Assembly (NCBI RefSeq): GCF_016907055.1
Contig: NZ_JAFBBG010000013.1
Location: forward strand, 1-44,318
Origin: Paracholeplasma morum
GTDB lineage: Bacteria; Bacillota_I; Bacilli_A; Acholeplasmatales; UBA5453
Direction: 5' to 3'
Length of the DNA: 44,318 nucleotides
The position numbers and the translations under genes were made by a program. The first letter of the stretch is position 1; every line of letters begins with the position of its first letter. Positions 2,265 through 27,028 of this stretch are shown piece after piece. The notes under the pieces were generated by a model. The model was not told where the DNA came from. It made no database searches and was given only the letters and a program-made list of their open reading frames with translations.

Positions 2265-3581
2265 ATGCAAAAAATTAAAGTAGAAAAAATGACCCCAGAA
2301 GGATATGCAGTTATTACACTAGATAAAACTTATTTGCTTCCAAATCTTATGATGGGAGAAGAAGCATTTGTGGATGTCACCAAAAAAGGCATACGTATCG
2401 AAAAGAGATTATCAAGTAATCCAGATAGAGTTAAAGCTAAATGCCCAATTTATGATGTATGTGGTGGATGTCAACTTCAACACATCAGTTATGCTAAACA
2501 GCTTGATTTAAAATCAACGTTAGTAGGTTTTTATTTAGAGAAAGAATCCATTAAGACAGAAGTATTACCCGTTATTGGATCTAACTTACCTTATAACTAC
2601 AGAAATAAGATTCAAATGGTATTTGGAGTAAACAAAGGTAAGATTGTTGCCGGATTTTATGAAGAAAACACGCATAAGATTGTGAATGCGACCAATTGTG
2701 ATATTCAAGATGAAGTGTCCAATGAAATCGTTAATACCATCAAATTGCTGATGAAAAAGCACAAATTGATGCCTTATAATGAAGATACAAAAGAAGGAAT
2801 CATTCGTCACGTAATGATTAAACGTAGTAGAAAGACAAACCAAGTTCTGGTTATTTTAGTCACACCTTCTAACGTTTTCCCAGGAAGAGGTAATCTCGTT
2901 AAAGATTTATTAAAAGCACATCCTTATATCACGTCCATTGTTCATAACGTTAATCCTAAGGATACATCTTTTGTACTAGGTGATCAAGAAAGAGTATTAC
3001 ATGGAAAAGGCTTTATTGAGGATGTTTTACTCAATAAACGTTTTCAAATCAGCAGTAAAACATTCTATCAAGTCAATAGCGAACAAACCGAAGTTCTATA
3101 CCAAAAAGTGATTGATTTCTTAGAATCAAAGAAAACCGACATTATTTTAGATGCATATTCTGGTGTGGGGACAATCGGGATTATTTTATCTGATTACGTC
3201 AAAAAAGTATTAGCAGTAGAAATTAACCCGGATTCAGTTATGAGTGCGAAGAAAAATGCACAACTTAATAAAGTTACAAACTTTGAAACCATTGCCATGG
3301 ATGCCAAAGAATACATACAGTATTTGACAAATGATAAGAAATCCTTAGATGCGATTGTTGTAGATCCACCTAGAGCAGGGCTTGATAAAGCATTTGTTGA
3401 TAGCATCCTTCAAATTAAACCGAAGAAAATGGTGTATGTTTCATGTAATCCTGAAACATTAGCAAGAGATTTAAGACAATTATCAGGCAGTTATCAAATT
3501 GTTAAAGTCCAGCCTGTAGATATGTTTTCACAAACATACCACGTTGAAAACATCGTATTGCTTTCTTTAAAAACAGCTTAA
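2265..3581 (+). CDS. rlmCD: 23S rRNA (uracil-5-)-methyltransferase, RlmCD/RlmD (TrmA) family
   Basis: A 438-aa SAM-dependent RNA methyltransferase that places C5 methyls on uridines; in Gram-positives this family modifies 23S rRNA. A short TRAM-like N-terminal part is followed by the iron-sulfur cysteines CPIYDVCGGC (C60, C66, C69). A central RNA-binding part and a C-terminal Rossmann methyltransferase domain follow, with LDAYSGVGTIGI (SAM binding), VDPPRAGL and YVSCNPETLARDL, where the Cys is the nucleophile. Length and motifs are complete. The start has an AAGGA site. It is a single gene closed by a strong terminator. Which uridine is modified cannot be decided from sequence. Confidence 0.88.
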   Translation: MQKIKVEKMTPEGYAVITLDKTYLLPNLMMGEEAFVDVTKKGIRIEKRLSSNPDRVKAKCPIYDVCGGCQLQHISYAKQLDLKSTLVGFYLEKESIKTEVLPVIGSNLPYNYRNKIQMVFGVNKGKIVAGFYEENTHKIVNATNCDIQDEVSNEIVNTIKLLMKKHKLMPYNEDTKEGIIRHVMIKRSRKTNQVLVILVTPSNVFPGRGNLVKDLLKAHPYITSIVHNVNPKDTSFVLGDQERVLHGKGFIEDVLLNKRFQISSKTFYQVNSEQTEVLYQKVIDFLESKKTDIILDAYSGVGTIGIILSDYVKKVLAVEINPDSVMSAKKNAQLNKVTNFETIAMDAKEYIQYLTNDKKSLDAIVVDPPRAGLDKAFVDSILQIKPKKMVYVSCNPETLARDLRQLSGSYQIVKVQPVDMFSQTYHVENIVLLSLKTA

Positions 3582-6715: not shown

Positions 6716-8227
6716 ATATGGAGGTACACCACACCTATCTAAGATGTGGAGGTACCTCCTTTTTGTATAGCCATAACTATGTTCTTTTTATTGAATTTAG
6801 TTTTTAAGTGGTGTATCCTTGTTGATGGAATACATAATTTTGTTTCTTAATCTTCTAAAGTCTCTAATTCCATTAGAGGCTTTGATAATAGTCTTTATTT
6901 TAGAGTTTGTAGATTCAATAGGTCCATTAGATATACGTCTGCCTCTAGAAGTTATAAAGGAATTTTTAATCTCTACTTTCTAGTTTTGAAGCATTCGACC
7001 AAAGTCTCTAAATTCTTTGATTGGGTTTGATTTAAATTCATCAATCAATTCATCTAATGTTTCACCACAGGAGTGATATTCGGCTGTTAAATTAAAGTAA
7101 CGATACTTTTCTTTTAACTTAAAACATCGCGCTAGGGTATCATCAATATCCAATAAATACTTAAGAATGGTTTGCTTATCCCAGTAGGCATTTAATTTAG
7201 CTATATAAACGGGCTTAAAATCTCTTAGACGGTCTAAATCTATCTTAAAGAAGAAATGAAATTTCTTTAACATGTAATAATACATGTCATTATTAATAAG
7301 TTTACTACGTTCTAATTTAAATTTATTCATGGTATTAATTCGAATCCGATCCATTGCTCTGTTGAGGTTTGCTATGACGTGAAAGGAATCCACAGCGATT
7401 AATGCTTTAGGAAATACTTTTTGAATAACATCCTTATAACTTTCCCACATATCGATGATAAAGACGTTTACACGGTCTTTTTCATCGATTGGTATGCGTA
7501 AGAAGTACTGATTCAAATAGTGCTTATGTCTAGTTGGTATGATATCAATAATCTTTTTAGAATCAAAATCATATAACACACAGGCATAAGGTGATTTCCG
7601 TTTTTTACTAATGAATACCTCATCCATACAGATTGTTCTGCCAAGTTTTAGACGTCGAGCATCTACAGCTTGATCAAATATATTAATCACACTTTGGGTG
7701 GAAATATGATGTTGGGCTGCTACATCTGTAAATGTGCGATTAGGTTGTTTAATACTTTCTAAAATAGAGTGTTTAGTCATGGTAGATAAATTCGTATGTT
7801 TTTTATTAAATGGATTGGGTTCTGATTGATATTTGCCACAGGAGATACATTTATATCGTCTGGAGTTGTATTCAATTATATAGGGTTCATGATTACTAAT
7901 ACCGTATTTAATATGCTTCATTCTATAACTATGAAACTTAGTCGTACAATGACATGTTGAACATAAGATATCTTGTTTAATAAGTTTAATATGAATATAA
8001 AGCTTGTTGTCTGACCTAAAAGTGTCAAGTGTTTCTATTTTATTTTTAATTGAATCTAAGAATAATAGTTGTATAATATTATTATGCATAGAGTCTCCTT
8101 ATAATCATTGTTATGGCTAACTTTAATTATAAGTGAGATTCTTTTATTTTTAAACAATAAAATCCGCCTATAAAAAATATGGAGGCCTACCTCCAAATAA
8201 TTTATAGGGTAGTTGTAACCTCCATAT
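6716..8227 (-). mobile_element. ISL3-family insertion sequence with a broken transposase
   Basis: The ends are imperfect inverted repeats. The left end reads ATATGGAGGTACACCACACC from 6716 and goes on to GGAGGTACC near 6748-6756. The complement of the right end, from 8227 inward, starts ATATGGAGGTTACAACTACC and continues to GGAGGTAGG near 8187. The total of about 1.5 kb fits an ISL3 element carrying one transposase gene. No clear 8-bp target duplication was found by eye, so the outer borders may be off by a few bases. The palindrome GGAGGTACCTCC (6748-6759), followed by T's, may also act as a terminator for the upstream ABC gene. Confidence 0.7.
6797..8089 (-). pseudogene. ISL3-family (IS204/IS1001/IS1165) transposase, interrupted by an in-frame TAG
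   Basis: The minus strand encodes an N-terminal zinc-binding part (CSTCHCTTKFHSYR, CISCGKYQSEPNPF), a helix-turn-helix (TFTDVAAQHHISTQSVINIF) and the DDE domain (CMDEVFISKK; VFIIDMWESYKDVIQKVFPKALIAVDSFHV given by its key residues D and D). A TAG at 6980-6982 stops translation after FGRMLQN. The same frame then continues for 60 codons to a TAA at 6797-6799. That tail holds SNGPIESTNSKIKTI, the family motif with the third catalytic residue Glu. Without readthrough the 369-aa product lacks this Glu and should be inactive. An AAGGAG site precedes the ATG at 8089. Confidence 0.8.
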
Positions 8228-8245: not shown

Positions 8246-9964
8246 TTATATCACTACAACCCGGTATAACATCTTAGCTAAGCCATCAGGTGCGTGATAT
8301 GTTTCCACAATGATTGGTTCAGTTTTTAAGAACTCAAAACGTCGTTCTTTGAAATCATTGTCTGAATAATTCTTGGTTCCAGCAATACAGTATACGATCT
8401 CATTTGGACTGACTGATATCATTTTATAGATGAATGTACTTAATATCTCTGAATCAAGTTCATCGATGACTAAATTCTTTTTACCTAAAATTTCATTGAT
8501 TTTATCCATACGTTTTTTGGTGTCGTAATTTTTTACGTGTTCAAGTTCAAGCTTGTTAATCTCAGCTGTTAGAACTTTAAGGCGATCGGAGTATTCTCTA
8601 TACTTGGCATTAAATATTGATTCTGGAATATCTGGTGTTTTTACCTTTGTATCAATTAGATTGGATAATGCTATTTCCTTTTCGTCTCTTTCTAATGTTA
8701 ACTTTTCAATGATACTTTCAACATCATCAACCTTGATGGTTGATTTAATTACCCTTTGAATGGTTGACATGATATCTAGATCTTTTAAGAAGACTTTGTT
8801 TAGCATGTGGATTGTGGTTGCTTCAATAAGATCTTGACGACTTGCCTTTGCATTACAATTTGCCTTACCCTCAATGTAGCTACCACACTGTTGCATCACC
8901 CTTTGTGATGGTTTACCGTAGTTCCAGTAACGTCTTTTTAGCGTTCGACCACATTCGCTGCATATAATCATTGCTGTTAAAGGATATGTTCTACTATATT
9001 TTGAGAGGTTCTTATCTTCACCAATTCTAACCTTAGCTCTATCTTTTCTGATGCGTTGAGCTAGTTCGAATGTTTCTCTATCGATGATTGCCTCATGACT
9101 GTTTTCTGTATAATAAGTAGGTGCATGATTTTTATTCTTTACTCTTGTGTGACTCAGGTAGTCAACACTAATCGTTTTTTGCTGCAGCATATCACCCATG
9201 TATTTTTCATTTTTTAGAATGGTTGTAATTGTTGAAAGTCGCCATTCTGTTTTACCAGCACCTGTCTTTGCACCCATTGCAATGAGTTGCTCTGCAATTT
9301 TAGCTGGACCAACACCACTAATGTATAAATTGAATATGAGTTTAACAATCTGTGCTTCCTCAGGTACAACCACTAGGTTTCCACCTTTTTTATCTTTCGT
9401 ATATCCAAGGAAGCGTTGATGGTTGATAATAGGCACACCCTCTCTAAAACGACGTTGAACATTCCATTTGACGTTTTCTGATACGTTTCTGGCTTCCTCC
9501 TGTGCCATTGATGACATGATGGTCAGAAGAAACTCTACTTTAGGATCTAGGGAACTAATGTTTTCTTTTTCAAAAATAATCTCTACATTGATTTGTCTTA
9601 ACTCTCTAATGTAGTTTAGTGCATCGACTGTATTTCTTGCAAACCTTGATATTGACTTGGTAAGTATAATATCAACTTGGCCAGCACGTGCTTTATCAAT
9701 CATTAAATTAAACTGTTTTCTGTTCTTTGTGCTAGTCCCACTGATGCCCTCGTCTGCATAAATGCCATCAAATATCCAATCTGGATTCTTTGTAATTCGT
9801 TGTGTATATTCATCTCGTTGAGCTTCATAACTTGTTTTTTGTTCTAAGTTGTCTGTTGATACTCGTACATAGGCACATACTCGTTTTCTGGTAATTGGAT
9901 TATTGATTTGATCCAAAGTGTAATGTGTCTTTGGTTGGATGATTCTTACGGTTTTGTTTTTCAT
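8246..9964 (-). CDS. Large serine recombinase (phage integrase type)
   Basis: A 572-aa site-specific recombinase. The N-terminal resolvase domain has AYVRVSTDN with the nucleophilic Ser at about residue 36 and the conserved ADEGISGTSTKNR and TKSISRFARNTVD blocks. The recombinase domain follows, then a zinc ribbon (CSECGRTL...CGSYIEGKANCNAKA) and a C-terminal coiled-coil region (IEKLTLERDEKEIALSNL). This is the full architecture of phiC31/A118-type integrases. An in-frame ATG at 10003 exists, but the ribosome binding site AAAGGAG lies after it and serves the ATG at 9964. Its minus orientation beside the repressor fits a lysogeny module; it probably integrates the prophage. Confidence 0.88.
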   Translation of the reverse strand: MKNKTVRIIQPKTHYTLDQINNPITRKRVCAYVRVSTDNLEQKTSYEAQRDEYTQRITKNPDWIFDGIYADEGISGTSTKNRKQFNLMIDKARAGQVDIILTKSISRFARNTVDALNYIRELRQINVEIIFEKENISSLDPKVEFLLTIMSSMAQEEARNVSENVKWNVQRRFREGVPIINHQRFLGYTKDKKGGNLVVVPEEAQIVKLIFNLYISGVGPAKIAEQLIAMGAKTGAGKTEWRLSTITTILKNEKYMGDMLQQKTISVDYLSHTRVKNKNHAPTYYTENSHEAIIDRETFELAQRIRKDRAKVRIGEDKNLSKYSRTYPLTAMIICSECGRTLKRRYWNYGKPSQRVMQQCGSYIEGKANCNAKASRQDLIEATTIHMLNKVFLKDLDIMSTIQRVIKSTIKVDDVESIIEKLTLERDEKEIALSNLIDTKVKTPDIPESIFNAKYREYSDRLKVLTAEINKLELEHVKNYDTKKRMDKINEILGKKNLVIDELDSEILSTFIYKMISVSPNEIVYCIAGTKNYSDNDFKERRFEFLKTEPIIVETYHAPDGLAKMLYRVVVI

Positions 9965-10032
9965 ATTTTGACCGCTCCTTTCGTTAGTATATACATCACT
10001 CAAAAAGCAATGAATAGCAAGTCATTAGTGAC

Positions 10033-11187: not shown

Positions 11188-11499
11188 ATGTATGAAGAGG
11201 ATTCCACGCACTTAAAACAGAAATCACATGTGCCATTAGTCCGTGACTATCTTAAAGTTTATCGCAACAAAATGGGTTATTCAGCTGAATTCTTATCTAG
11301 AGAACTCGATGTATCTGCAGTCTACTACAGACAAATTGAAGGCGGACAAAGAGGTAAAAGGCTGCCTATAGAGTTAGTGATTAAACTAATCATATTGCTT
11401 CATGTGGAACCACTAGAGTTTCTAAAAGCAGAAGCCTTGTATTTAAGTTCATATGAAGAGCTTAATGGCATTAAGAAATACAAAAAAATTAGATGGTAA
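11188..11499 (+). CDS. Cro-like HTH (Xre) protein
   Basis: A 103-aa protein with a single HTH of Xre type (YRNKMGYSAEFLSRELDVSA, then VYYRQIEGGQRGKRLPIEL). It is the first gene of the rightward early operon, divergent from the repressor, with GGAG 13 bases before the ATG. The position and small size suggest the Cro role, repressing the lysogeny promoter. The last residues, after LYLSSYEEL, are not conserved-looking. The binding site is unknown. Confidence 0.7.
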   Translation: MYEEDSTHLKQKSHVPLVRDYLKVYRNKMGYSAEFLSRELDVSAVYYRQIEGGQRGKRLPIELVIKLIILLHVEPLEFLKAEALYLSSYEELNGIKKYKKIRW

Positions 11500-11569
11500 C
11501 ATAATCACCATTTATCTTGTTTTTCAAAAAAAACATAGAATCAAAAATTTGATACAGAAAGGTGAAAAG

Positions 11570-12496
11570 ATGTCATCAAAAGAAGGGTTTAAGCTGCTTA
11601 CAAAAAAGTATCTAGATGATGCCGATGTAAGTATGACGACTAAGCAATCCTATGAAAGGATCCTTCAGCAATTTGTAGATTATGCCAACACACTGTCTGA
11701 TTTACCAACTCGCAGTGACGTTATGGCTTATCGAGACTATCTTTTTAAACGCAAGCTAGAAGAAACGACCATTAAGTATCACCTGGTAGTGGTACGAAAT
11801 TTCTACCGTTGGTATCACACGAACGGTCATGGAGCAAATCCATCGGAGGGGATTAAGAGTCCAAAGATTGAAAAGAAGTTTAAACGTGCGCATTTATCTG
11901 AAAGTGAATCAAGACAGTTATTAAAACTTGCTCAAATCAATTCAAATAAGAACATCATTAAATACAGAGATTATGTTATGGTTTTACTTATGCTAACAAC
12001 AGGTATGAGGACAGTAGAAGTTGAACGTGCTGATGTTAGTGATTTAAATGTGATTGATGACGGTGAAATTCTCTATGTTCATGGAAAAGGCAAAACATCG
12101 AAGAGTTCATTCGTTCGACTCTCGCCTTTAGTGAATAAAGCAATTGAAACATACATCATGAAAAGAAGCGACCAGTATGAACCGTTATTTATTGACCATA
12201 AACCTAAGTATTTAGGCCAAAGAATGAAAACCAGAAATATTAGACGTATTATCAAGGATCTACTTAGAGATATCGGATTTGATGATGATAAACATACAGC
12301 ACATAGTTTAAGACATACAACTGCAACATTAGCAAGACAATATGGAGCAAACAAGGATGACACTCAAAAGATTATGCGTCATTCAGATCCAGCAACAACA
12401 GAGATTTATATGCATGCGGAAATCAAGAGTGTGCATGTTTATGAACACGTAATTGCACAAAAGCTACTCAATCAAGAAGAAGATGAAGACAACTAA
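11570..12496 (+). CDS. Tyrosine recombinase (XerC/XerD-like phage integrase)
   Basis: A 308-aa protein with an N-terminal SAM-like core-binding domain (SYERILQQFVDYANTL, TIKYHLVVVRNFYRWY) and a complete C-terminal catalytic domain: Arg147 in GMRTVE, His245 and Arg248 in HSLRH, His271 in MRHSD and Tyr280 in EIYMHA. The chosen ATG at 11570 has AAAGGTG upstream; the frame is open further upstream (to 11453) but overlaps the Cro-like gene and has no site there. It is expressed with early genes rather than with the repressor. Since the phage already has a serine integrase, it may be a second integration system, a resolvase, or a leftover of recombination between mobile elements. Confidence 0.85.
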   Translation: MSSKEGFKLLTKKYLDDADVSMTTKQSYERILQQFVDYANTLSDLPTRSDVMAYRDYLFKRKLEETTIKYHLVVVRNFYRWYHTNGHGANPSEGIKSPKIEKKFKRAHLSESESRQLLKLAQINSNKNIIKYRDYVMVLLMLTTGMRTVEVERADVSDLNVIDDGEILYVHGKGKTSKSSFVRLSPLVNKAIETYIMKRSDQYEPLFIDHKPKYLGQRMKTRNIRRIIKDLLRDIGFDDDKHTAHSLRHTTATLARQYGANKDDTQKIMRHSDPATTEIYMHAEIKSVHVYEHVIAQKLLNQEEDEDN

Positions 12497-15002: not shown

Positions 15003-15029
15003 ATAAATGAGATTAACGAGGTGGAACAT

Positions 15030-16058
15030 ATGGCGTTTAATATTAATAATAGGAGATACACTGGAAGTAAGAGTAAACTATCTGAATGGATTAGGAACAT
15101 AATAATCGAAGAATGTAAAGACTCTGAATCTTTTTGTGATATATTTGCTGGAACTGGTGTAGTAACATATACCATGTTTGATGATTATAAAGAGTTTATT
15201 ATAAATGATTTTCTATATTCTAATGAAGTAATTTATAATGGTTTTTTTGGCAATAAAAGTTATGATTATGAGAAGTTAATCAAAATAGCAAAAAAATATA
15301 GAACTTTGAATGTGGATGAACTAAAACCAGATTTTGTGACAAACAACTACGGAAACAAGTACTTTTCTATGGAAGATGCTTTGAAGATTGATTACATTCG
15401 AAATGATATTGAGAACAGACATAAAAATCTAACAAAAATGGAGTATTATATTCTTTTAACATCACTAATATATTCTTTTGATAGATCAGCAAACACGGTA
15501 GGACACTATGATGCCTTTATAAAAGCTAAGAACTTGAAAGCATCTTTTAAATTTGAGTTGATCTCACCAGTTATTAAAGATGAAGATAATCGTACTGTAA
15601 AAATATACAGAGAAGATGCAAATAAACTAGCTCGGAGAATTTCTGCAGACATTGTTTATATTGATCCACCGTATTCTTCCAGACAGTATAGTAGATTTTA
15701 TCATGTTATTGAGACTATTACAAAGTGGGATAAACCGGAGTTGTTTGGTGAAGCATTGAAACCAGAACCAGAAAACGTTAGTGAATATTGCAAAACCAAA
15801 GCGATAGATTTTTTTAATGAACTGATAGTTGATTTAAGAGCTAAATATATCGTGGTATCGTATAATAATACATATACATCAAAAAGTAAGTCATCAAAGA
15901 ATAAAATGACTCTAGAAGAAATTACTGAAGTTCTAAATAGAAAAGGTCCTACAAAGATTTTTTCAATGAATCATAGAGCTTTTAATGCAGGTAAGACAGA
16001 ATTGGATAATCATCAAGAGATGCTATTTGTTACGAAAGTGAGGAACCAAAATGATTAG
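15030..16058 (+). CDS. Type II N6-adenine DNA methyltransferase 1 (D12 class)
   Basis: A 342-aa DNA methyltransferase. RRYTGSKSKLSEWI (motif X-like), FCDIFAGTGVVTYTM (motif I, SAM binding) and DIVYIDPPYSSRQYS (motif IV, catalytic DPPY) come in that order, as in the D12/alpha group. The ATG at 15030 is chosen because GAGGTGG (15018-15024) precedes it; a GTG at 15021 is inside that site. It overlaps the second methyltransferase by 8 bases. Asymmetric type IIS sites need one adenine methylase per strand, which explains the pair. The recognition sequence cannot be read from the sequence. Confidence 0.85.
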   Translation: MAFNINNRRYTGSKSKLSEWIRNIIIEECKDSESFCDIFAGTGVVTYTMFDDYKEFIINDFLYSNEVIYNGFFGNKSYDYEKLIKIAKKYRTLNVDELKPDFVTNNYGNKYFSMEDALKIDYIRNDIENRHKNLTKMEYYILLTSLIYSFDRSANTVGHYDAFIKAKNLKASFKFELISPVIKDEDNRTVKIYREDANKLARRISADIVYIDPPYSSRQYSRFYHVIETITKWDKPELFGEALKPEPENVSEYCKTKAIDFFNELIVDLRAKYIVVSYNNTYTSKSKSSKNKMTLEEITEVLNRKGPTKIFSMNHRAFNAGKTELDNHQEMLFVTKVRNQND

Positions 16059-16941
16059 ATCACCATTTTTTTATGTTGGAGATAAATATAAATTAATGCC
16101 GCAACTAAGAAAGCATTTTCCTAAAAAGTATAAGACGCTTATTGAACCTTTCGTTGGTGGAGGGAGTGTATTTTTAAACACTAAAGCTGATCATTATGTG
16201 GGTAATGACAAGAATACACATATGATTAAACTTCATAACTTCTTGTATTCATATAAAAACAATAGAGTCAAGTTTTTCCAGGAATTTGAAAAAATTATAA
16301 TCGAATATGGATTTTCTGCTTCTTATCTTGGTAATACAGTATCGGACGAGTTGAAGCAAAAACATAAAAAAACATACTATGCAGTATTTAATAAGAAGCC
16401 TTATATGAAATTAAGAAGTGATTTCAATAAGGATAAAGAAAACTATATGTTTCTGTATTTACTGTTAATTTATGGTTTTAATCATATGTTAAGATTTAAT
16501 CGAAGTGGAGATTTCAACTTGCCTGTTGGAAATGTAGATTATAATAAGAACGTTTTCAAAGCTTTAAATGTCTATTTTGATTTTATTGATAAACATGAGG
16601 TTAAATTCTTTAATTTAGATTTTAAAGATTTCTTATTAAATAGAGAATATCAGTCAGATGATTTTGTATATTTAGATCCTCCATATCTGATTAGCGCATG
16701 TGAGTACAATAAAGGTTGGACTGAAGATAGTGAAATCGAACTTTTAAATGTAATTGATAAACTTAATGATATGGGTGTCAAATTTGCACTTTCAAATGTC
16801 TTTATTCATAAAGGACAAGAAAATCGATTATTGATAGACTGGGCAAAAAAATATAAAGTAGAACAGGTCAAAAGTAACTACATTAGTTACCACGATAACA
16901 CAATCAAGGAAACCGTAGAAGTTTTAATTATGAATTATTGA
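16051..16941 (+). CDS. Type II N6-adenine DNA methyltransferase 2 (D12 class, Dam/DpnM-like)
   Basis: A 296-aa methyltransferase with PFFYVGDKYKLMPQL (motif X), LIEPFVGGGSVFLNT (motif I) and DDFVYLDPPYLIS (motif IV DPPY), the layout of the Dam/DpnM group. It starts within the end of the first methyltransferase gene, with a GTGAGG ribosome binding site. It probably methylates the other strand of the same asymmetric target. Both enzymes need S-adenosylmethionine, which a MetK encoded further along the prophage could supply. Confidence 0.85.
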   Translation: MIRSPFFYVGDKYKLMPQLRKHFPKKYKTLIEPFVGGGSVFLNTKADHYVGNDKNTHMIKLHNFLYSYKNNRVKFFQEFEKIIIEYGFSASYLGNTVSDELKQKHKKTYYAVFNKKPYMKLRSDFNKDKENYMFLYLLLIYGFNHMLRFNRSGDFNLPVGNVDYNKNVFKALNVYFDFIDKHEVKFFNLDFKDFLLNREYQSDDFVYLDPPYLISACEYNKGWTEDSEIELLNVIDKLNDMGVKFALSNVFIHKGQENRLLIDWAKKYKVEQVKSNYISYHDNTIKETVEVLIMNY

Positions 16942-16953
16942 GTGGGGGATTTT

Positions 16954-18492
16954 ATGTCGAGAAAAATAGTAAAACAAAAGCCTAGATATAAACAAATGTC
17001 ATTGGAGACAGCTGTTAGAAACCCTGAAAGATATAAAGAAATACTGAGCATTCTTATTGAATATGAGAATGCTGTTTTAAATGATGACAATCTACTAGAA
17101 ATAGTCACTCATTTATATAGAGAAGGTATTGTATCAGCATTAAGACAAGATTTCAATCAAATGACTATTGCACAGCAAAAGAAGACTGTTAAGAAAGTAA
17201 ACTTAACACGAAAAGCAGATGGTGGCTTTCCTATGGGTTATGCATCTAGATTTTGGACATATGTGAGAACTTTATCTGAGTTTGGTTTTCTTTATGCAAC
17301 TTATAATGATAAACTTATTATTTCTGATATTGCAAAACTATTAGTCAAAGAAGAAATTGATGATCAAATCGCATTTGCTACACAAGCAGCAATCTATAAT
17401 AGAAAGTCTCCTTTTAGAAACGTATCAAATGATTATAATTATTTCAAATTTATCACAAATGTACTCATCAGACTGAACGAAAGCAATAAAACTTTATCAT
17501 ATGAACAGTTTGTCGTATCTTTATTTAATAAAGAAGGAAATGTGGATGATTTTATTAATGAAATCAATTCAAACTCATTTAGCAATGATGATTCTGTTTA
17601 TGATTATCTTGTGGAAAAGTACCAGGTTAATAACAAAATAGGTACAGTTACCAAAGACTATCCTGATGCTGTGCTAAGATTACTCAAAATTACTGGTTTT
17701 ATTTCTATAAAATATGCTGGTAAAATAAGAATAATGATTAACCACGATAAGTTGCAGTTTATTGAACAAATTTTTTCAAATGATTATGTTTTTTCAGAGG
17801 AGCAAAAGTCAGATCGCAAATTATTCTTTAATCAGTTTATCCTTTACTCAAAACAGTTAATAAAGACAACAGCAAGTTGGACTGTAGAAAGCCAAGAAGA
17901 CGTTCATATCAAACTTAAGAAGGTTGTGGATGAATACAAGATAGATATTGAAAAAATTGGTCAATTACTAGCAAATTTTGTAGCAAATAAAGATCGTGAG
18001 TTTAAATATGTTCCTGATCCATTGAAATTGGAGTTTTATTTATCTCTTTTGCTGTATTTAGTATACGGAAAAGACCATATTATTGCGCCAAATTATAAAG
18101 TGGATTCGTTGGGAATGCCTATCTCTCATGCACCGGGTAATCACGGAGATATTTATGTTTATTCAGATGTTATCAATTGGCTAATTGAAGTTACCATGAT
18201 TAGGAATAAACAACAACAACTCAATAATGAAACAACTAGTGTAATTAGACATTTGGAAGAAGATACTAGAGATAGTTATTTATCATTTGTAGCCCCTTTT
18301 GTACATCCAGATACTCAAGCATTCTATGATAATGAAATAATTAGGATGTTATTAACCGACAAACTTGTTTATCTTGAAACTTATAGCATAAGTGATTTTG
18401 TAGACAAGGTAATGATGAATCAAGTACATGATTCAATGAAGAACTATACAAATAATATCTTTACTAATGTCAGAAAAAAATTGAACATTTGA
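16954..18492 (+). CDS. Type IIS restriction endonuclease, AlwI family
   Basis: A 512-aa protein. Early residues SLETAVRNPERYKEILSIL and the C-terminal block PLKLEFYLSLLLYLVYGKDH, followed by APNYKVDSLGMPISHAPGNH, are typical of the AlwI/PleI/MlyI group. The nuclease core is GDIYVYSDVINWLIEVTMIR, where Asp of GD and Glu of EVT are spaced 13 residues apart, as in related enzymes. These cut a few bases outside an asymmetric 5-bp site; some relatives are nicking enzymes. The ATG at 16954 is preferred, since GTGGGGGA just upstream is the ribosome binding site. Its neighbours are the two matching methylases. Confidence 0.8.
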   Translation: MSRKIVKQKPRYKQMSLETAVRNPERYKEILSILIEYENAVLNDDNLLEIVTHLYREGIVSALRQDFNQMTIAQQKKTVKKVNLTRKADGGFPMGYASRFWTYVRTLSEFGFLYATYNDKLIISDIAKLLVKEEIDDQIAFATQAAIYNRKSPFRNVSNDYNYFKFITNVLIRLNESNKTLSYEQFVVSLFNKEGNVDDFINEINSNSFSNDDSVYDYLVEKYQVNNKIGTVTKDYPDAVLRLLKITGFISIKYAGKIRIMINHDKLQFIEQIFSNDYVFSEEQKSDRKLFFNQFILYSKQLIKTTASWTVESQEDVHIKLKKVVDEYKIDIEKIGQLLANFVANKDREFKYVPDPLKLEFYLSLLLYLVYGKDHIIAPNYKVDSLGMPISHAPGNHGDIYVYSDVINWLIEVTMIRNKQQQLNNETTSVIRHLEEDTRDSYLSFVAPFVHPDTQAFYDNEIIRMLLTDKLVYLETYSISDFVDKVMMNQVHDSMKNYTNNIFTNVRKKLNI

Positions 18493-18518: not shown

Positions 18519-21500
18519 ATGTCTATTATAAGCAGAATTCAGAGTTCCATAAAACAACTTAATGGTGGAGAGTTTCAAAGGTTTGCTGATGCATATGTGG
18601 CAAGAAGATTAGTGTTTAAAAGTATGCATAGTTTGGGAATGCAGGCTGGAACCGAAAAAACTACAAAAGGAGTACCGGACACATATTTTATTGATAATTC
18701 TGACAAATACATTTTTTTGATGTCAACAACTGATAGTAATGTGTTTAGTAAACTGAAAAAGGATTTGAATGATGCGTTAGACATAGGTAAGACAAAAATA
18801 GATAACTTATTAATCAAAGAAGTTATATTGGCACACACATCATCAAATTTGACAGTAGAACAAACGAATGAGCTAATGAATATAGCTCGTGAGAAGAAAA
18901 TAGATTTAAATATATATGGGATCGATCAAATTTCACAGGATTTGTATTATAGATATAAAGACTTAGCAAGAGATTTCTTAGGTATAAAACTTGACACAAA
19001 TCAAGTGTTTCAAGTTCAAGATTTTATTAAGTATAACGACTCAAACTCTATTGCTGCACCACTTGATACTAAGTTTTTGAAACGAGATAATATTTTTAAT
19101 GAATTATATAATAAAGTGAATCGAAGTAATTATGTTATTGTATATGGTAAAGCAGGATCGGGAAAAACTAGGATATCCTTAGAGTTCTGTAGAATATTCA
19201 GTAAAGAAAATAATTATAAATTGATATGCATTAAGAGTAACGATTTAGATATCTATGAAGACATCATTACTAACTTACAAGAGCCTGGTGCTTATTTGAT
19301 TTTTATAGATGATATAAATATGTTAACGAAAGTAGGTTTTGTTTTAGATTATTTATATAAAAATGATACTGGATATAATGTAAAGATTATAGGGACTGTT
19401 CGAGAATACTCTTTAACACAATTAATCAATAGGACAGCATCAATTGCCACGCCTGAAACACTTAAAGTCGACTTAATGAGTGATGATGAAATTGGCCTAC
19501 TAATTAAAGAAAATTTTGATATTCACAATTTGGTATATATTAAGCAAATTCAGCGCATTTCAAATGGCAATCCTCGATTAGCTATGTTAACAGCAAAACT
19601 TGCAGTGGATAGTCAAGATTTATCAAAATTACACAGTGTTTCAAATTTATATGACGCATATTACGGAAAATACATAGATAATTGCAATTCTTTGACCAAG
19701 GAAGATCTTTTAGTTGCTAGTTTAATATCTATTATAGGTAATTTTGATTTAAATTACTATGAAGTATTTGAGAGCTTATTGGAATCAATGAAGATAGATG
19801 AAACACAGTTTTATTTGAGTGTGAAAAACCTTGAAGCAAATGAAATGGTTGATATATACGAAGATCAAATTGTCAAAATTGCTGATCAAAACATGGGTAA
19901 TTACTTAATCAAGTATTCTCTAGTTGATAAAAAATTAATTGAATATAGTGACTTGATCGTTTTAACTTATCGTAAGTTCAACCGACAGTTAGTTGAAAGT
20001 ATGAACGTTTTAAGTAATATATTTTACTCTGATGAGATATTTGAGTTTGTTAAATCGTCAACTGTAAAAGCTTATAAGTTAAATGTTTCTAGAGAATCAA
20101 GTGAATTAAAATGGTCATTCTTAACATCATTTTATGTGTTCTTTCCGGATGAAATCATATCATTAATACATGATGCAATTGAAAAGGTCAAAGATGACGG
20201 ATGTGAGTTCTCACTTAATAATGTTTCGATAAATCAGTATTATGAGATCCTATTTGGACTATATAGTTCAAACAATGATTTAACTCCTTTAGAATTAGCT
20301 ATAAATTTACTTGAAATTTATCCTGAAACACACGAGTCATTTTATAATGAACTAGTAAATAGATGTGGTGTGAATTCTGATAGTGACTATTACGGAAATC
20401 TCTCTTTAGTTAAGCTAACAGAACATCTCATTTCACATTCAGATAATTATCAGATTAAACCATTGCGTCATATTTTTTGTAAATTAGCTCAATACCTATT
20501 GAAATTCGAATTTAATCCCACAGAACATGAGAGATCAAAAATAATCTACTATACAATTTTCGCAAAAGATAGAGATGATTTTATTCAATTAAGGAAGCTT
20601 GGATGGAAATTGATTGTTTCTTTAGTTAGTGATAATGAGTTTAGGATGGATGCTCGGAAAATTTTATACAAATATCATATTAATCAGGAGTATGCAAAAT
20701 CTAACCTGGGTAAAATTGATTTAGAGAACATATGTCTTGTCATTAAGTTATTAAGTTATGAAGATATAAATGATTGCATTATAGCTGTTGGGTTAGGTGA
20801 ATTTTTTAAAGATCATGTTCAGATCAAATCTAGTTTAGCTCCATTTTTTAATAATAGAGAATATATTGTTTTTCATACTGTGGTTGGATATAAATACTCA
20901 CGAACATATGATTATGTAGACATTAATGAGAAAATTGATTCAGATATTAAAATAATGTTGCAAAATGAGGATATCAAATTCATATTAAATTTTATTGAAA
21001 ATGCCAGTGAAATCTTTAATGACTCACAACATATTCAATCATTAATTTCGGGGCTTAATAAGATGATTGAGATTTGCTATCAAGATGAGGTTACATTAAA
21101 AATCATTTTAGACTATATTTTTAGAAGTAACCAATTGATTGACAAAGTGAATCCATATATCGTTTTGAAAGGTTTATATACACTTTATAATAATAAGACA
21201 AAAGCAAAAAACGAAATTGAAAGAATTACAAATACCTCATCGCATAAATATTTGTTTGCATATTTCGAAATGCTCAGTAGTGATGAATTTGACAAGGAAG
21301 ACTTAGAAAGTCTTATAACGTTGATGAATGAAAGATATTGGTATGATTCTGAATTTAATTTCCATATAGATTTTAGGTTTTTACTTAAACACCATGATAA
21401 TTTTCCAAGTATTGTAGATGACATATTCAAGGTAATTCTCAATAAAAGTCTGGAGTTTAATGTGAATAATATATTAGTTAGAAGTGTTTTTAATGAATAT

Positions 21501-22229
21501 TTGATGCCAAGAGAAGTTATCAATTTAGTTACTGGTGATACACTTACCTTATTGTTTGATACATATTGCTATAAGGTAAAGTCAGACCCAAACACTGATT
21601 CAAATGGAAAACTGCTAATGTACTTTTATAATATTGACTCCAAATATTTATATAGATATATTGATTTATATGCTTCATTAGATAAACATACATTCTACAG
21701 TAGAATTTACTTTATTTGGTCTACTCCCGAATATTCTAAACTTGTTTCCAAGATATTTGACATAGTGATTTCGTCAAGAAGTGTTCATGATATGACCGGT
21801 TACTATCTTAGTGATTTCTTTGTAAAACAATCTAGAGTTAATACAGTTAATGATATGCAAAGAAAAAAAATAGAGTTGATAGAAAACTATTTAAAGGACA
21901 ATGTTAATGTTTTAGAAAAGCTTGAACTAATTTTTAGTATTGTTTCGTATTATCCAACTGATGTAAAACTAAAGTTTTTCACTATTCTAGCAGAAAATAA
22001 TATTGAATTTTCTATTTTTGACAGACTGGATTTAGAAAAAAGATTGTCTTCCTGGACCGGCAGTGCAATCCCCTATCTGGAGGATAAAATTAAATTCATA
22101 AAAGGATTACAAGATGTTTTTAGAGGATTGAAGTTCATAAAGCATAGAGAGAAACTTAATCGATTTTTGGTATCATATGAAAATGACATCAAAAAAACAA
22201 GAATTGAGGAACTTACAAGAAGTTTTTAA
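18519..22229 (+). CDS. Large STAND-type NTPase with N-terminal nuclease-like domain (candidate anti-phage sensor)
   Basis: A 1236-aa protein, 26 bases after the restriction enzyme gene with an AGAGG site. Residues 1-150 start with QLNGGEFQRFADAYV, then GTEKTTKGVPDTYF and YIFLMSTTDS, the pattern of a restriction-endonuclease-like (Mrr/PD-D/ExK) fold. In this family pattern an acidic residue is expected before TT, but here it is Met-Ser, so activity is uncertain. Residues about 180-370 form an NTPase: Walker A YGKAGSGKT (209-217), Walker B LIFIDDI (260-266), GTVREY (292-297) and SNGNPRLAML, as in nSTAND3-type domains. The remaining 850 residues look like helical sensor repeats. By analogy with Avs proteins it may sense a phage protein; this is inference. 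Confidence 0.65.
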   Translation: MSIISRIQSSIKQLNGGEFQRFADAYVARRLVFKSMHSLGMQAGTEKTTKGVPDTYFIDNSDKYIFLMSTTDSNVFSKLKKDLNDALDIGKTKIDNLLIKEVILAHTSSNLTVEQTNELMNIAREKKIDLNIYGIDQISQDLYYRYKDLARDFLGIKLDTNQVFQVQDFIKYNDSNSIAAPLDTKFLKRDNIFNELYNKVNRSNYVIVYGKAGSGKTRISLEFCRIFSKENNYKLICIKSNDLDIYEDIITNLQEPGAYLIFIDDINMLTKVGFVLDYLYKNDTGYNVKIIGTVREYSLTQLINRTASIATPETLKVDLMSDDEIGLLIKENFDIHNLVYIKQIQRISNGNPRLAMLTAKLAVDSQDLSKLHSVSNLYDAYYGKYIDNCNSLTKEDLLVASLISIIGNFDLNYYEVFESLLESMKIDETQFYLSVKNLEANEMVDIYEDQIVKIADQNMGNYLIKYSLVDKKLIEYSDLIVLTYRKFNRQLVESMNVLSNIFYSDEIFEFVKSSTVKAYKLNVSRESSELKWSFLTSFYVFFPDEIISLIHDAIEKVKDDGCEFSLNNVSINQYYEILFGLYSSNNDLTPLELAINLLEIYPETHESFYNELVNRCGVNSDSDYYGNLSLVKLTEHLISHSDNYQIKPLRHIFCKLAQYLLKFEFNPTEHERSKIIYYTIFAKDRDDFIQLRKLGWKLIVSLVSDNEFRMDARKILYKYHINQEYAKSNLGKIDLENICLVIKLLSYEDINDCIIAVGLGEFFKDHVQIKSSLAPFFNNREYIVFHTVVGYKYSRTYDYVDINEKIDSDIKIMLQNEDIKFILNFIENASEIFNDSQHIQSLISGLNKMIEICYQDEVTLKIILDYIFRSNQLIDKVNPYIVLKGLYTLYNNKTKAKNEIERITNTSSHKYLFAYFEMLSSDEFDKEDLESLITLMNERYWYDSEFNFHIDFRFLLKHHDNFPSIVDDIFKVILNKSLEFNVNNILVRSVFNEYLMPREVINLVTGDTLTLLFDTYCYKVKSDPNTDSNGKLLMYFYNIDSKYLYRYIDLYASLDKHTFYSRIYFIWSTPEYSKLVSKIFDIVISSRSVHDMTGYYLSDFFVKQSRVNTVNDMQRKKIELIENYLKDNVNVLEKLELIFSIVSYYPTDVKLKFFTILAENNIEFSIFDRLDLEKRLSSWTGSAIPYLEDKIKFIKGLQDVFRGLKFIKHREKLNRFLVSYENDIKKTRIEELTRSF

Positions 22230-22490: not shown

Positions 22491-22593
22491 TGCTATAAAT
22501 AACATGGAATACTGGCTTTAAAACCAGCCTAGAAATAATGGGAATTCAGAAATGAGTTCCTTTTTGTTTTTGCAGAGATACTTGTAGTATTCC
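22491..22593 (+). ncRNA. Candidate structured leader RNA with internal terminator before the late-region genes
   Basis: An extended -10 (22491-22499) precedes a segment in which GGAATACT (22506-22513) can pair with AGTATTCC (22586-22593). Enclosed are a small hairpin CTGG/CCAG (22512-22515, 22524-22527) and GGAATTC/GAGTTCC (22541-22547, 22554-22560) followed by TTTTTG, which is a terminator. The closing stem and the terminator are compatible with each other, but CTGG partly competes with the closing stem. This could be an attenuator or a riboswitch-like element, or simply a short terminated RNA. No known riboswitch class was recognised. Confidence 0.4.
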
Positions 22594-22649: not shown

Positions 22650-23174
22650 ATGAAAGGGAAAATGCTAGATCTGTATGAGCGTTGGGAAGAATCTGGGCAC
22701 CTAAACAGTAGATTAAAAGCCATATCTGAAATGATATCTAAAAGAGCAACACAAAGACAGGTTGCAGAATACTTAGGTATCACAGAAAAGACACTCATTA
22801 AGTTAAGAAAAGCTCATCCCAAGTTGAACAAAGCATTTCAATATGGGGATGAGGAACTAAAAGAAAAGTTAGTTGATGCTATGTATCAACGAGCAATCGG
22901 ATTTGAATATGAAGAAACACAAACTGTGATAGAAGAGACTAAATCAGGGACAAAGAAACGAATCACAAAATACAAGAAGCAGTCACTTCCTGAAATCACA
23001 GCTATTAAATACTTACTCATTACAAAGTTCGGTATTGAGTATAACGAGAAAAAAGCAGAAATAGAACTGATGACCAAACGTTTAGAAAAAGGTGAAGAGG
23101 TATGGATAAATGAATATAGTGATGAAGAAAGTATCAGCACTCCAAGAGTACGAAAACAATCCAAGAAACAATGA
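22650..23174 (+). CDS. Phage HTH protein (small-terminase-like or regulator)
   Basis: A 174-aa protein with a helix-turn-helix near residues 32-60 (SKRATQRQVAEYLGITEKTL, then IKLRKAHPKLNKAF). After that come YQRAIGFEYEETQTVIEETK, ITKYKKQSLPEITAIKYLL and a charged end. Proteins with an HTH followed by such a YEE.Q...E tail resemble some phage small terminase or terminase-like DNA-binding proteins. A separate P27-type TerS exists at 28633, so its job is not clear. It starts after GGAGTG and overlaps the ParB-N/methylase gene by 65 bases. Confidence 0.5.
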   Translation: MKGKMLDLYERWEESGHLNSRLKAISEMISKRATQRQVAEYLGITEKTLIKLRKAHPKLNKAFQYGDEELKEKLVDAMYQRAIGFEYEETQTVIEETKSGTKKRITKYKKQSLPEITAIKYLLITKFGIEYNEKKAEIELMTKRLEKGEEVWINEYSDEESISTPRVRKQSKKQ

Positions 23175-24321
23175 TGCTGCAATCGATGCGGTTGCAAAGA
23201 GTATAGAAGAGTTTGGATTTAAAGTTCCGATTGTGATCACTAAAGATCATGTCATTATTGCAGGACACACAAGACTTAAAGCGAGCCTTAAACTTGGACT
23301 TGATGAAGTACCTTGTATTATTGCTGATGATTTAACAGAAGAACAAATCAAAGCATTCAGACTTGCAGATAACAAAACTGCAGAGCTTGCGACCTGGGAC
23401 TTTGCCAAACTTGAAGAAGAGCTTGCAAACATTGAAATGGATATGTCTCTCTTTGGGTTTGAAGAACTTGTAGCTGATGTACCAGACAATGCGACCGATG
23501 ATGACTTTGATCCAACAGATGATCTATCAGATGCACCATATACACAAAAGGGCGATATCTATATCTTAGGTAATCACCGAGTGATGTGTGGTGATTCAAC
23601 TTTAAAAGCGGATGTTAAGAAACTAATACAAGACGACCTTGTTGATCTGGTTTTTACTGATCCACCATACAACGTCGATTATGAAGGTACAGCTGGAAAA
23701 ATTATGAACGATAAGATGGAAGATAATACATTCTATCTTTTTCTTTTTAAAGCCTTTGAGAATATGTTTGAACATACAAAACCAGGTGGCGCTATATATG
23801 TGTGTCACGCTGATACGGAAGGACTCAATTTTAGAAACGCATTCAAAAATGCTGGTTATAAACTTGCAGAGTGTCTTATATGGGTTAAAAACGCACTAGT
23901 TTTAGGTAGACAAGATTATCACTGGCGACATGAACCAATTCTTTATGGTTGGAGAGAAGGTGCCGCTCATTACTTTGTGGATGACCGTACTCAAGATACG
24001 ATATGGGAATATAACAAACCAAAACGAAATGAAGAACATCCTACGATGAAACCATTAGAACTCGTCGGTAAAGCTATCGCTAATTCATCCAGAGTGAATG
24101 AGATAGTCCTAGATTTATTTGGTGGTTCTGGATCAACCATGATCGCATCTGATCAACTTCAAAGAAGAGCAAGAATCATGGAACTGGATGAACGATTTGT
24201 GGATGTGATTGTAAAACGCTATATAAAGTACAAAGTTTCGCTTGATGATTGCCATCTCATTCGTAATGGAAAAGAGATACCACTTAATCAAATCAACGAC
24301 TTTCAGATATTGTCACTATAG
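23110..24321 (+). CDS. ParB-N/DNA adenine or cytosine-N4 methyltransferase fusion
   Basis: A 403-aa phage DNA modification methylase. Residues 1-110 are a ParB/sulfiredoxin-like domain (ENNPRNNDAAIDAVAKSIEE, then VIIAGHTRLKASLKLGL). The catalytic part has VDLVFTDPPYNVDYEG (motif IV) and, near the end, EIVLDLFGGSGSTMIA (motif I), so the order is that of the beta group. This fusion is common in Firmicute prophages, where it modifies phage DNA, perhaps against host restriction. The start at 23110 has GAAGAGG upstream; an in-frame ATG at 23122 is an alternative. Confidence 0.85.
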   Translation: MNIVMKKVSALQEYENNPRNNDAAIDAVAKSIEEFGFKVPIVITKDHVIIAGHTRLKASLKLGLDEVPCIIADDLTEEQIKAFRLADNKTAELATWDFAKLEEELANIEMDMSLFGFEELVADVPDNATDDDFDPTDDLSDAPYTQKGDIYILGNHRVMCGDSTLKADVKKLIQDDLVDLVFTDPPYNVDYEGTAGKIMNDKMEDNTFYLFLFKAFENMFEHTKPGGAIYVCHADTEGLNFRNAFKNAGYKLAECLIWVKNALVLGRQDYHWRHEPILYGWREGAAHYFVDDRTQDTIWEYNKPKRNEEHPTMKPLELVGKAIANSSRVNEIVLDLFGGSGSTMIASDQLQRRARIMELDERFVDVIVKRYIKYKVSLDDCHLIRNGKEIPLNQINDFQILSL

Positions 24322-25879: not shown

Positions 25880-27028
25880 ATGAAGATTATAACAAGTGAA
25901 TCTGTCTTTAAAGGACACCCAGATAAAATATGTGACCAAATTAGTGATGCAATTTTAGATGCACATTTGGAACAAGACAGAAATGCAAGAGTAGCAGTAG
26001 AAACAGCTATCAAGGATGATGTTGTTTTTATTTTTGGTGAGGTAACTTCTAAAGCTTCAGTGAATTATAAAGAAGTGGCCCTAAGCACATTAAAAGAAAT
26101 CGGATATGATGATCCATTCGATGTGATTGAAAAGATATCCAAACAGTCCGATGATATTGCACTTGGTGTGAATCATACGAATGATCATGAACAAGGTGCA
26201 GGTGATCAGGGCTTAATGTTTGGTTACGCTTGCAAAGAAACGCCCGAATTAATGCCTTTACCAATCGTAGTGGCACATGACATCGCAAGAAACATTGATG
26301 AGCTTAGAAAGGCAAAATATGGCCACGTGTTTGGTCCAGATGGTAAGTGCCAAGTATCTGTAGTATATGAGAATGATGAACCGATTGCATATGAAACAAT
26401 TGTAGTGTCTGCTCAAACAAAACATGGTATTCAACTAGACTATGCAAAAGAGATTATTCTAAATGAAGTGTTAAAGCCTCTGATTGGTGAAGACCTTTCA
26501 CACATTCAAGTCTTAATCAATCCAACAGGTGCTTTTGTCGTAGGTGGTCCTTATGGAGACTCTGGATTAACTGGTAGAAAGATTATAGTTGATACCTATG
26601 GTGGTTATGCAAAACATGGCGGTGGCGCATTCTCTGGCAAAGATGTGAGCAAGGTAGACCGCAGTGCGGCTTACTATGCCAGATTTGTAGCAAAAGCCCT
26701 TGTAGCGGCAAATTTAGCCGACAGGTGCGAAGTTAGCGTGTCCTATTCCATCGGTGTAGCAAACCCTGTAAGTGTATCCGTTGATACCTTTGGAACAGGG
26801 GTTACCTCTGATGACATTCTATTGAAGTTAATTAAAGAGAACTTCAACTTTACACCTTCAAGTATTATCAAAGAACTAAACCTGGACAAAGTGAAGTTTA
26901 AAACTTTAGCATCCTATGGACATATTGGTCGTGTAGATCTTGATGTAGCATGGGAACAAATAGATGCTAAAGCAAAACAACTAAGTGAATCTTATGAGCA
27001 AACCAAAAGAGCTGCACAGGTTTTATAA
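25880..27028 (+). CDS. metK: S-adenosylmethionine synthetase (methionine adenosyltransferase), phage-encoded
   Basis: A 382-aa enzyme that makes S-adenosylmethionine from methionine and ATP. The signatures HPDK (13-16), GAGDQGLMFGYA (from 106), PTGAFVVGGPYGDSGLTGRK and GGGAFSGKD (from 247) are all present, so it should be active. Length is close to the usual 380-400 aa. It lies inside the prophage between small accessory genes and the HNH/packaging genes. SAM feeds the three DNA methyltransferases of this prophage, which is a likely reason for carrying it; this role is inferred. GAGG precedes the start. Confidence 0.9.
   Translation: MKIITSESVFKGHPDKICDQISDAILDAHLEQDRNARVAVETAIKDDVVFIFGEVTSKASVNYKEVALSTLKEIGYDDPFDVIEKISKQSDDIALGVNHTNDHEQGAGDQGLMFGYACKETPELMPLPIVVAHDIARNIDELRKAKYGHVFGPDGKCQVSVVYENDEPIAYETIVVSAQTKHGIQLDYAKEIILNEVLKPLIGEDLSHIQVLINPTGAFVVGGPYGDSGLTGRKIIVDTYGGYAKHGGGAFSGKDVSKVDRSAAYYARFVAKALVAANLADRCEVSVSYSIGVANPVSVSVDTFGTGVTSDDILLKLIKENFNFTPSSIIKELNLDKVKFKTLASYGHIGRVDLDVAWEQIDAKAKQLSESYEQTKRAAQVL

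Follow-up and report, generated by a model that had tools for sequence, protein, structure and literature searches.

A predicted Avs-like STAND NTPase carried as defence cargo in a Paracholeplasma morum prophage

STAND proteins that combine C-terminal repeats with a TIR, SIR2 or Mrr effector are known from prophage and satellite hotspots, and the gene described here occupies a cargo site like those of P2/P4 elements (PMC9122126). We characterized this gene in the window, a stretch of 44,318 nucleotides from Paracholeplasma morum (contig NZ_JAFBBG010000013.1, positions 1–44,318). It encodes a protein of 1236 residues that we predict, with a probability of roughly 0.72, to sense phages in the manner of Avs (STAND/NLR-like) proteins, to belong to the defence cargo of a prophage and to act independently of the restriction–modification (R-M) genes next to it. 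A literature search found no paper describing this STAND family.

The STAND gene (18519–22229, + strand) has an ATG start directly preceded by a Shine–Dalgarno sequence (AAAGAGG) and begins 26 bases after the AlwI-like reading frame, which ends at 18492. AlphaFold models built on 18–19 homologues (pLDDT 84 and 81) revealed an N-terminal α-β-β-β-α-β-α-β domain, an NTPase, a winged-helix region and a long α-solenoid. On the coding strand these correspond to a PD-(D/E)xK-like domain, assigned by model topology and conserved residues (residues 1–162; 18519–19004), a STAND NTPase (residues 189–375; 19083–19643), a helical/winged-helix region delimited by the model and by NLR alignments reaching residue 470 (residues 381–470; 19659–19928) and a divergent, all-helical solenoid modelled with a pLDDT of 81 as putative sensor (residues 471–1236; 19929–22226). 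The protein carries the sequence and model features of STAND NTPases, namely a Walker A motif (GKAGSGKT, residues 210–217, with G210–T217 conserved in the family), an hhhhDD-type Walker B motif (LIFIDD, residues 260–265, with D264 and D265), the arginine of the TVRxY motif (TVREY, residues 293–297, with R295 kept in the family) and a winged helix after the NTPase, seen in the model and in alignments to NLRs over residues 164–470. A sequence-only reading of this DNA had announced the frame and its 26-base distance from an AlwI-like nuclease, the two Walker motifs and a helical C-terminus of about 850 residues, all of which our analyses bear out. The best Pfam matches of the window protein stay below the gathering cut-off (nSTAND3, 1.2e-5, 25.4 versus 27.2 bits; nSTAND_NTPase5, 4.5e-5, 23.7 versus 34 bits), and the homologues at L044 and L045 narrowly pass nSTAND_NTPase5 at 34.5 bits.

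Foldseek analysis of residues 1–470 gave Avs4 (8dgf, bound to a phage portal protein) as the top match (E = 2.2e-12), with EfAvs5, Avs3, SAMD9 and NLRs ranking after it and Avs5 as the third-ranked match. The VIA alignment to Avs4 runs from residue 3 to residue 470 against residues 2–483 of the chain, covering both the N-terminal domain and the NTPase, and NLRC4, NOD2, NLRP3, Apaf-1 and Avs5 align over residues 159–470 with Z scores of 14–16. The Avs4 superposition has a large overall rmsd, reflecting different domain packing, and the comparison therefore supports a common domain order, not a common rigid structure. Models and fold searches together show the Avs (AVAST) architecture of an N-terminal effector, a central STAND module and a C-terminal repeat sensor. 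The Avs-type assignment of the sequence-only reading thus holds for architecture and best structural match, and fails for placement by PADLOC or Pfam: no PADLOC 2.0.0 model matches the window protein at E values up to 1, and the homologues give only weak P-loop matches. The solved Avs3, Avs4 and Avs5 structures, including 8dgf, were not among the matches listed for the family profile against PDB sequences, and a BFVD search returned mostly AAA/RFC proteins. For the solenoid, the fold search yielded generic HEAT/karyopherin-like shapes alone (Z 8–11). The solenoid also diverges more than the first 480 residues (mean identity to homologues of about 18% beyond residue 480 versus about 37% for residues 1–360), as would be expected of a diversifying sensor.

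The N-terminal domain is unrecognised by Pfam. Its modelled secondary structure (H16–30, E35–38, E55–58, E64–70, H75–87, E99–106, H113–125 and E129–133), read within the larger model and not from the domain alone, fits the α-β-β-β-α-β core of PD-(D/E)xK proteins, and from this topology and the family motif G(T)PD(T/S)...KY(I/V)FVEYTTQ we infer a nuclease. In alignment A8, G44, P53, D54, K78, D82, E101 and further residues are invariant and E68 is near-invariant. The window copy keeps D54, K78, D82 and E101 and reads KYIFLMSTTD, in which E68 is replaced by Met (codon ATG, 18720–18722). The catalytic pattern of an Asp followed by E-x-K is consequently incomplete in this copy (D54 retained, M at position 68 and T70 at the Lys position); relatives read E-Y-T across the same positions. 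The nuclease-like domain claimed from the letters alone is thus backed by the fold model and family conservation, and lacks both a Pfam match and E68. With Met in place of E68, the effector reaction could be weaker, different or absent altogether, and cleavage is the weak point of any mechanism proposed for this copy.

The same residue is Met in L006 and L026 and Ala in L014/L008 and L025, and the genes of the window, L014, L025 and L026 are uninterrupted reading frames. In the tree, the window copy adjoins the split of L014, L026 and L006, a placement made unsure by long branches. It is possible, if tentative, that this lineage has a catalytically dead domain and a protein that works without DNA cleavage, either through binding or sequestration or as a nuclease whose active site has moved; the substitutions in open frames and the retention of D54, K78, D82 and E101 are consistent with such a change, whereas the role of E68 is deduced solely from conservation and strand position. 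Active sites of the PD-(D/E)xK fold tolerate residue migration, which also counts against a dead domain. The gene could further be a decaying passenger without current function, as remnant or interrupted family copies occur elsewhere (L007, L019, L056, L054 and L041) and the terminal branch of the window copy is long (1.84). We consider decay unlikely, however, given that the 1236-codon frame is fully open and colinear with its homologues, with Walker A, Walker B and Shine–Dalgarno sequences intact. At L052 (9821–11949), the same N-terminal domain is joined, in place of the STAND module, to a NACHT NTPase (PF05729, 5e-15) with NLRC4/NOD2-like helical domains, and the contig ends inside the gene; on the basis of this fusion, the domain appears to be portable between NTPases.

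The genes around the block encode an integrase, an anti-repressor, a replisome organiser, small and large terminase subunits, a portal protein, a major head protein and a distal tail protein, in line with the prophage location suggested earlier. A cargo block of four genes on the + strand (two methyltransferases, as also predicted before, an AlwI-type endonuclease and the STAND gene) separates the replication genes from the small terminase gene; its successive junctions are an 8-base overlap, a 0-base gap and the 26-base gap. The first methyltransferase is a D12-class N6-adenine enzyme (15030–16058; PF02086, 3e-35; PADLOC MTase_II, 8e-123; DPPY motif) whose frame opens with GTG at 15021; we corrected the start to ATG at 15030, which follows AGGTGG and is likelier. 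The second (16051–16941; PF02086, 4e-35; DPPY motif), which overlaps the first, is a D12-class/Dam-family N6-adenine methyltransferase that scores above the cut-off of TIGR00571 dam (154.6 versus 114.85). The endonuclease (16942–18492) matches RE_AlwI (PF09491, 4e-60) and PADLOC REase_II (8e-41). GGATC specificity is a criterion for AlwI-type type IIS R-M systems; the block shows their gene content, an RE_AlwI nuclease with two D12 adenine methyltransferases bearing DPPY. A hairpin with a T tract (22540–22561, + strand) closes the block upstream of the small terminase gene. Our scan found four terminator-like sites in the region versus 1.8 expected by chance, of which the good one in the cargo block region is that at 22540; the STAND and R-M genes are probably co-transcribed.

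The block is AT-richer than the rest of the prophage (28–29% versus 34% GC). A second, closely related prophage of the same genome (G000:C11; L086 and L087) has the small terminase, ParB-methylase, packaging and head genes and is devoid of the whole block, on account of which we regard the STAND gene as prophage defence cargo. The location inside a prophage would also suit a housekeeping or phage-intrinsic AAA/STAND regulator. Such a role is very improbable given that the sibling prophage dispenses with the gene while retaining packaging and head genes, that the gene is missing from 12 other genomes of the host's family and that homologues are patchy, occurring in 7 of the 392 genomes of a phylum sample. 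Housekeeping contexts, which the sequence-only reading had named as contrary evidence, were not seen for the homologues, whose loci lie near defence systems instead.

Other features of the two prophages were also recorded. The end of the window prophage carries a large serine recombinase (8246–10003, minus strand) and a tyrosine integrase (11453–12496), adjoined by an ISL3 transposase gene (6980–8089). Insertion of this prophage in rumA was considered and rejected, as rumA (2265–3581) is intact. A frame at 25880–27028, near the ParB-methylase gene (23110–24321), resembles frames in both sibling prophages (L079 and L086) and has an S-adenosylmethionine synthetase-like start (SESVFxGHPDKxCDQ). 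On the C11 contig (L087, 5149–11696), a C5-cytosine-methylase-like gene (369 residues) and genes of 550, 843 and 417 residues stand in a row, possibly representing another defence system.

The arrangement of the cargo block raises the question of whether the STAND protein and the AlwI-type enzymes form one functional system in which the former guards or uses the restriction nuclease, as a two-layer or effector-outsourcing defence. The common strand, the 8-base overlap with 0- and 26-base gaps and the single good terminator-like site at 22540 would fit this arrangement, and the adjacent nuclease could compensate for the loss of E68. Tested from both sides, however, the pairing does not recur. 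AlwI systems are absent from all 28 homologue loci, where no R-M protein of the window matches anything, and the STAND gene is absent from all six AlwI-type neighbourhoods of other genomes that contain methyltransferases and endonuclease (on two of these contigs the sequence stops after a few kilobases). Moreover, a prophage of G104 with the same replication genes has AlwI-like R-M genes at the same place without a STAND gene. We therefore judge a single coupled system to be distinctly unlikely. Narrower still, and highly unlikely, is a composite NLR/restriction system in which the STAND protein of this lineage, having no nuclease active site of its own, would, on sensing a phage, recruit or unleash the type IIS nuclease whose gene lies 26 bases before its own, or guard the R-M system against phage anti-restriction. 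The link between the two looks accidental, and the coupling proposed by the sequence-only reading is not supported; its two-layer defence could apply at most loosely, as two systems that share a cargo block. At the corresponding position of the same-order prophage of G104 (L085, G104:C30), the AlwI-like R-M genes are accompanied by D12 and other methyltransferases.

About 25 full-length, colinear homologues emerged from tblastn and pattern searches, distributed over Bacillota, Fusobacteriota, Bacteroidota, Ignavibacteriota, Kiritimatiellota and Leptospira plasmids (the last at 24–25% identity and 88–92% coverage), with Lachnospiraceae, Vagococcus, Rossellomorea and Streptobacillus (Fusobacteriota) among the sources, and a contig-truncated homologue in a cyanobacterial bin. 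The single protein gave no hits in collection scans, and alignment A1 gave few in genome searches; homologues were recovered by the N-terminal alignments A4, A5 and A7. Two viral contigs hold the start of the STAND gene, behind serine recombinases (L022) or phage tail genes (L023), and tblastn searches of INPHARED phages with the STAND protein, one homologue and the AlwI enzyme gave no match. A domain swap that would place the STAND C-terminus in another frame (L029/L088) was rejected, the locus being a remnant fused to a glycosidase-like frame, as was a second STAND-like protein adjoining L038 as a close relative.

The Fusobacteriota locus L040 and the Bacillota locus L041 have 4281 bp in common at 98.1% DNA identity, which points to movement of the family between phyla. 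In the Lachnospiraceae group, the STAND gene lies about 28 bases after a rumA extension of about 85 codons, as would be expected where a serine-recombinase element has its attachment end; rum is an established hotspot of integration (PMC4288039). STAND homologues at L039, L040, L041, L022 and L033–L037 mark the attachment end of such elements in the 3′ end of rumA/rlmD, and the extension of about 85 codons that precedes them is a replacement of the gene end.

Known defence systems are found near several homologues: ietAS at L034 and the same gene pair adjoining L040, Hachiman HamB and a SAVED nuclease (Hachiman/CBASS) at L042, PD-Lambda-4_A at L002 (2e-273), GmrSD at L037, a McrB-like AAA gene at L048, Mrr_cat_2 at L055 and RhuM (PDC-S05) directly adjoining the STAND homologue in about eight loci. 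The survey of neighbours envisaged in the sequence-only reading thus turned up defence genes and no AlwI-type linkage. Homologues often appear beside defence genes or on integrative elements in rumA, which is an association and not a measured enrichment; that rumA is a general integration hotspot counts against the neighbour argument for a sensor. On the Leptospira plasmid pLiSL2 (L002, 13842–19934), the PD-Lambda-4_A homologue (1264 residues) and two more genes lie directly 3′ of the STAND homologue. Five Bacteroidota loci (L047, L048, L049, L051 and L053; approximately 8680–9825) have two small membrane-type genes directly upstream of the STAND gene, encoding 136–145 residues and 236–260 residues (the latter with TIR/deoxyribosyltransferase-like similarity), in a conserved three-gene operon.

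By analogy with Avs and NLR biology, the predicted anti-phage sensor would bind a conserved product of an incoming phage through its C-terminal solenoid, ATP binding would make its NTPase domains oligomerise, and the N-terminal domains, brought together, would trigger the effector reaction, which in the family at large may be DNA cleavage and in the window copy is possibly altered. This reaction would stop the infection and protect the lysogen (abortive infection), the protein acting independently of the adjacent restriction system even though both are probably transcribed together. The homologues form a coherent family of Avs-like sensors of about 1240 residues in at least six phyla, built like known Avs sensors and like animal and plant immune receptors, that PADLOC 2.0.0 and Pfam do not recognise as a family. 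The loss of a near-invariant acidic residue in several members asks how an NLR-like protein can function when its effector is degenerate, and the solenoid sensors and nuclease-like effectors of the family are open to direct testing.

Among described systems, Avs4 (AVAST type 4, 8dgf) has the same domain order and a helical C-terminus, whereas the STAND protein is about 300 residues shorter, has E68 replaced and gave no sequence-level match in the profile search of PDB chains or with PADLOC models. Avs5 (SIR2-STAND; EfAvs5, 9jap; PaAvs5, PMC12931631) likewise joins an nSTAND3-like NTPase to divergent helical repeats at the C-terminus, and differs in its effector, which is SIR2 and not PD-(D/E)xK-like. 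The STAND proteins with Mrr_cat or BpuSI_N effectors from P2/P4 prophage hotspots (PMC9122126) resemble ours in architecture, with nuclease, STAND and repeats in a phage cargo site, but belong to other hosts and other phages. Animal and plant NLRs (NLRC4, NOD2, NLRP3 and NRC2), Apaf-1 and, by Foldseek, SAMD9 have the STAND NTPase and winged helix in common with it, combined with unrelated effector and sensor domains. The AlwI type IIS R-M system directly upstream, an endonuclease with two D12 methyltransferases, is a separate system that is unlinked to the STAND gene elsewhere.
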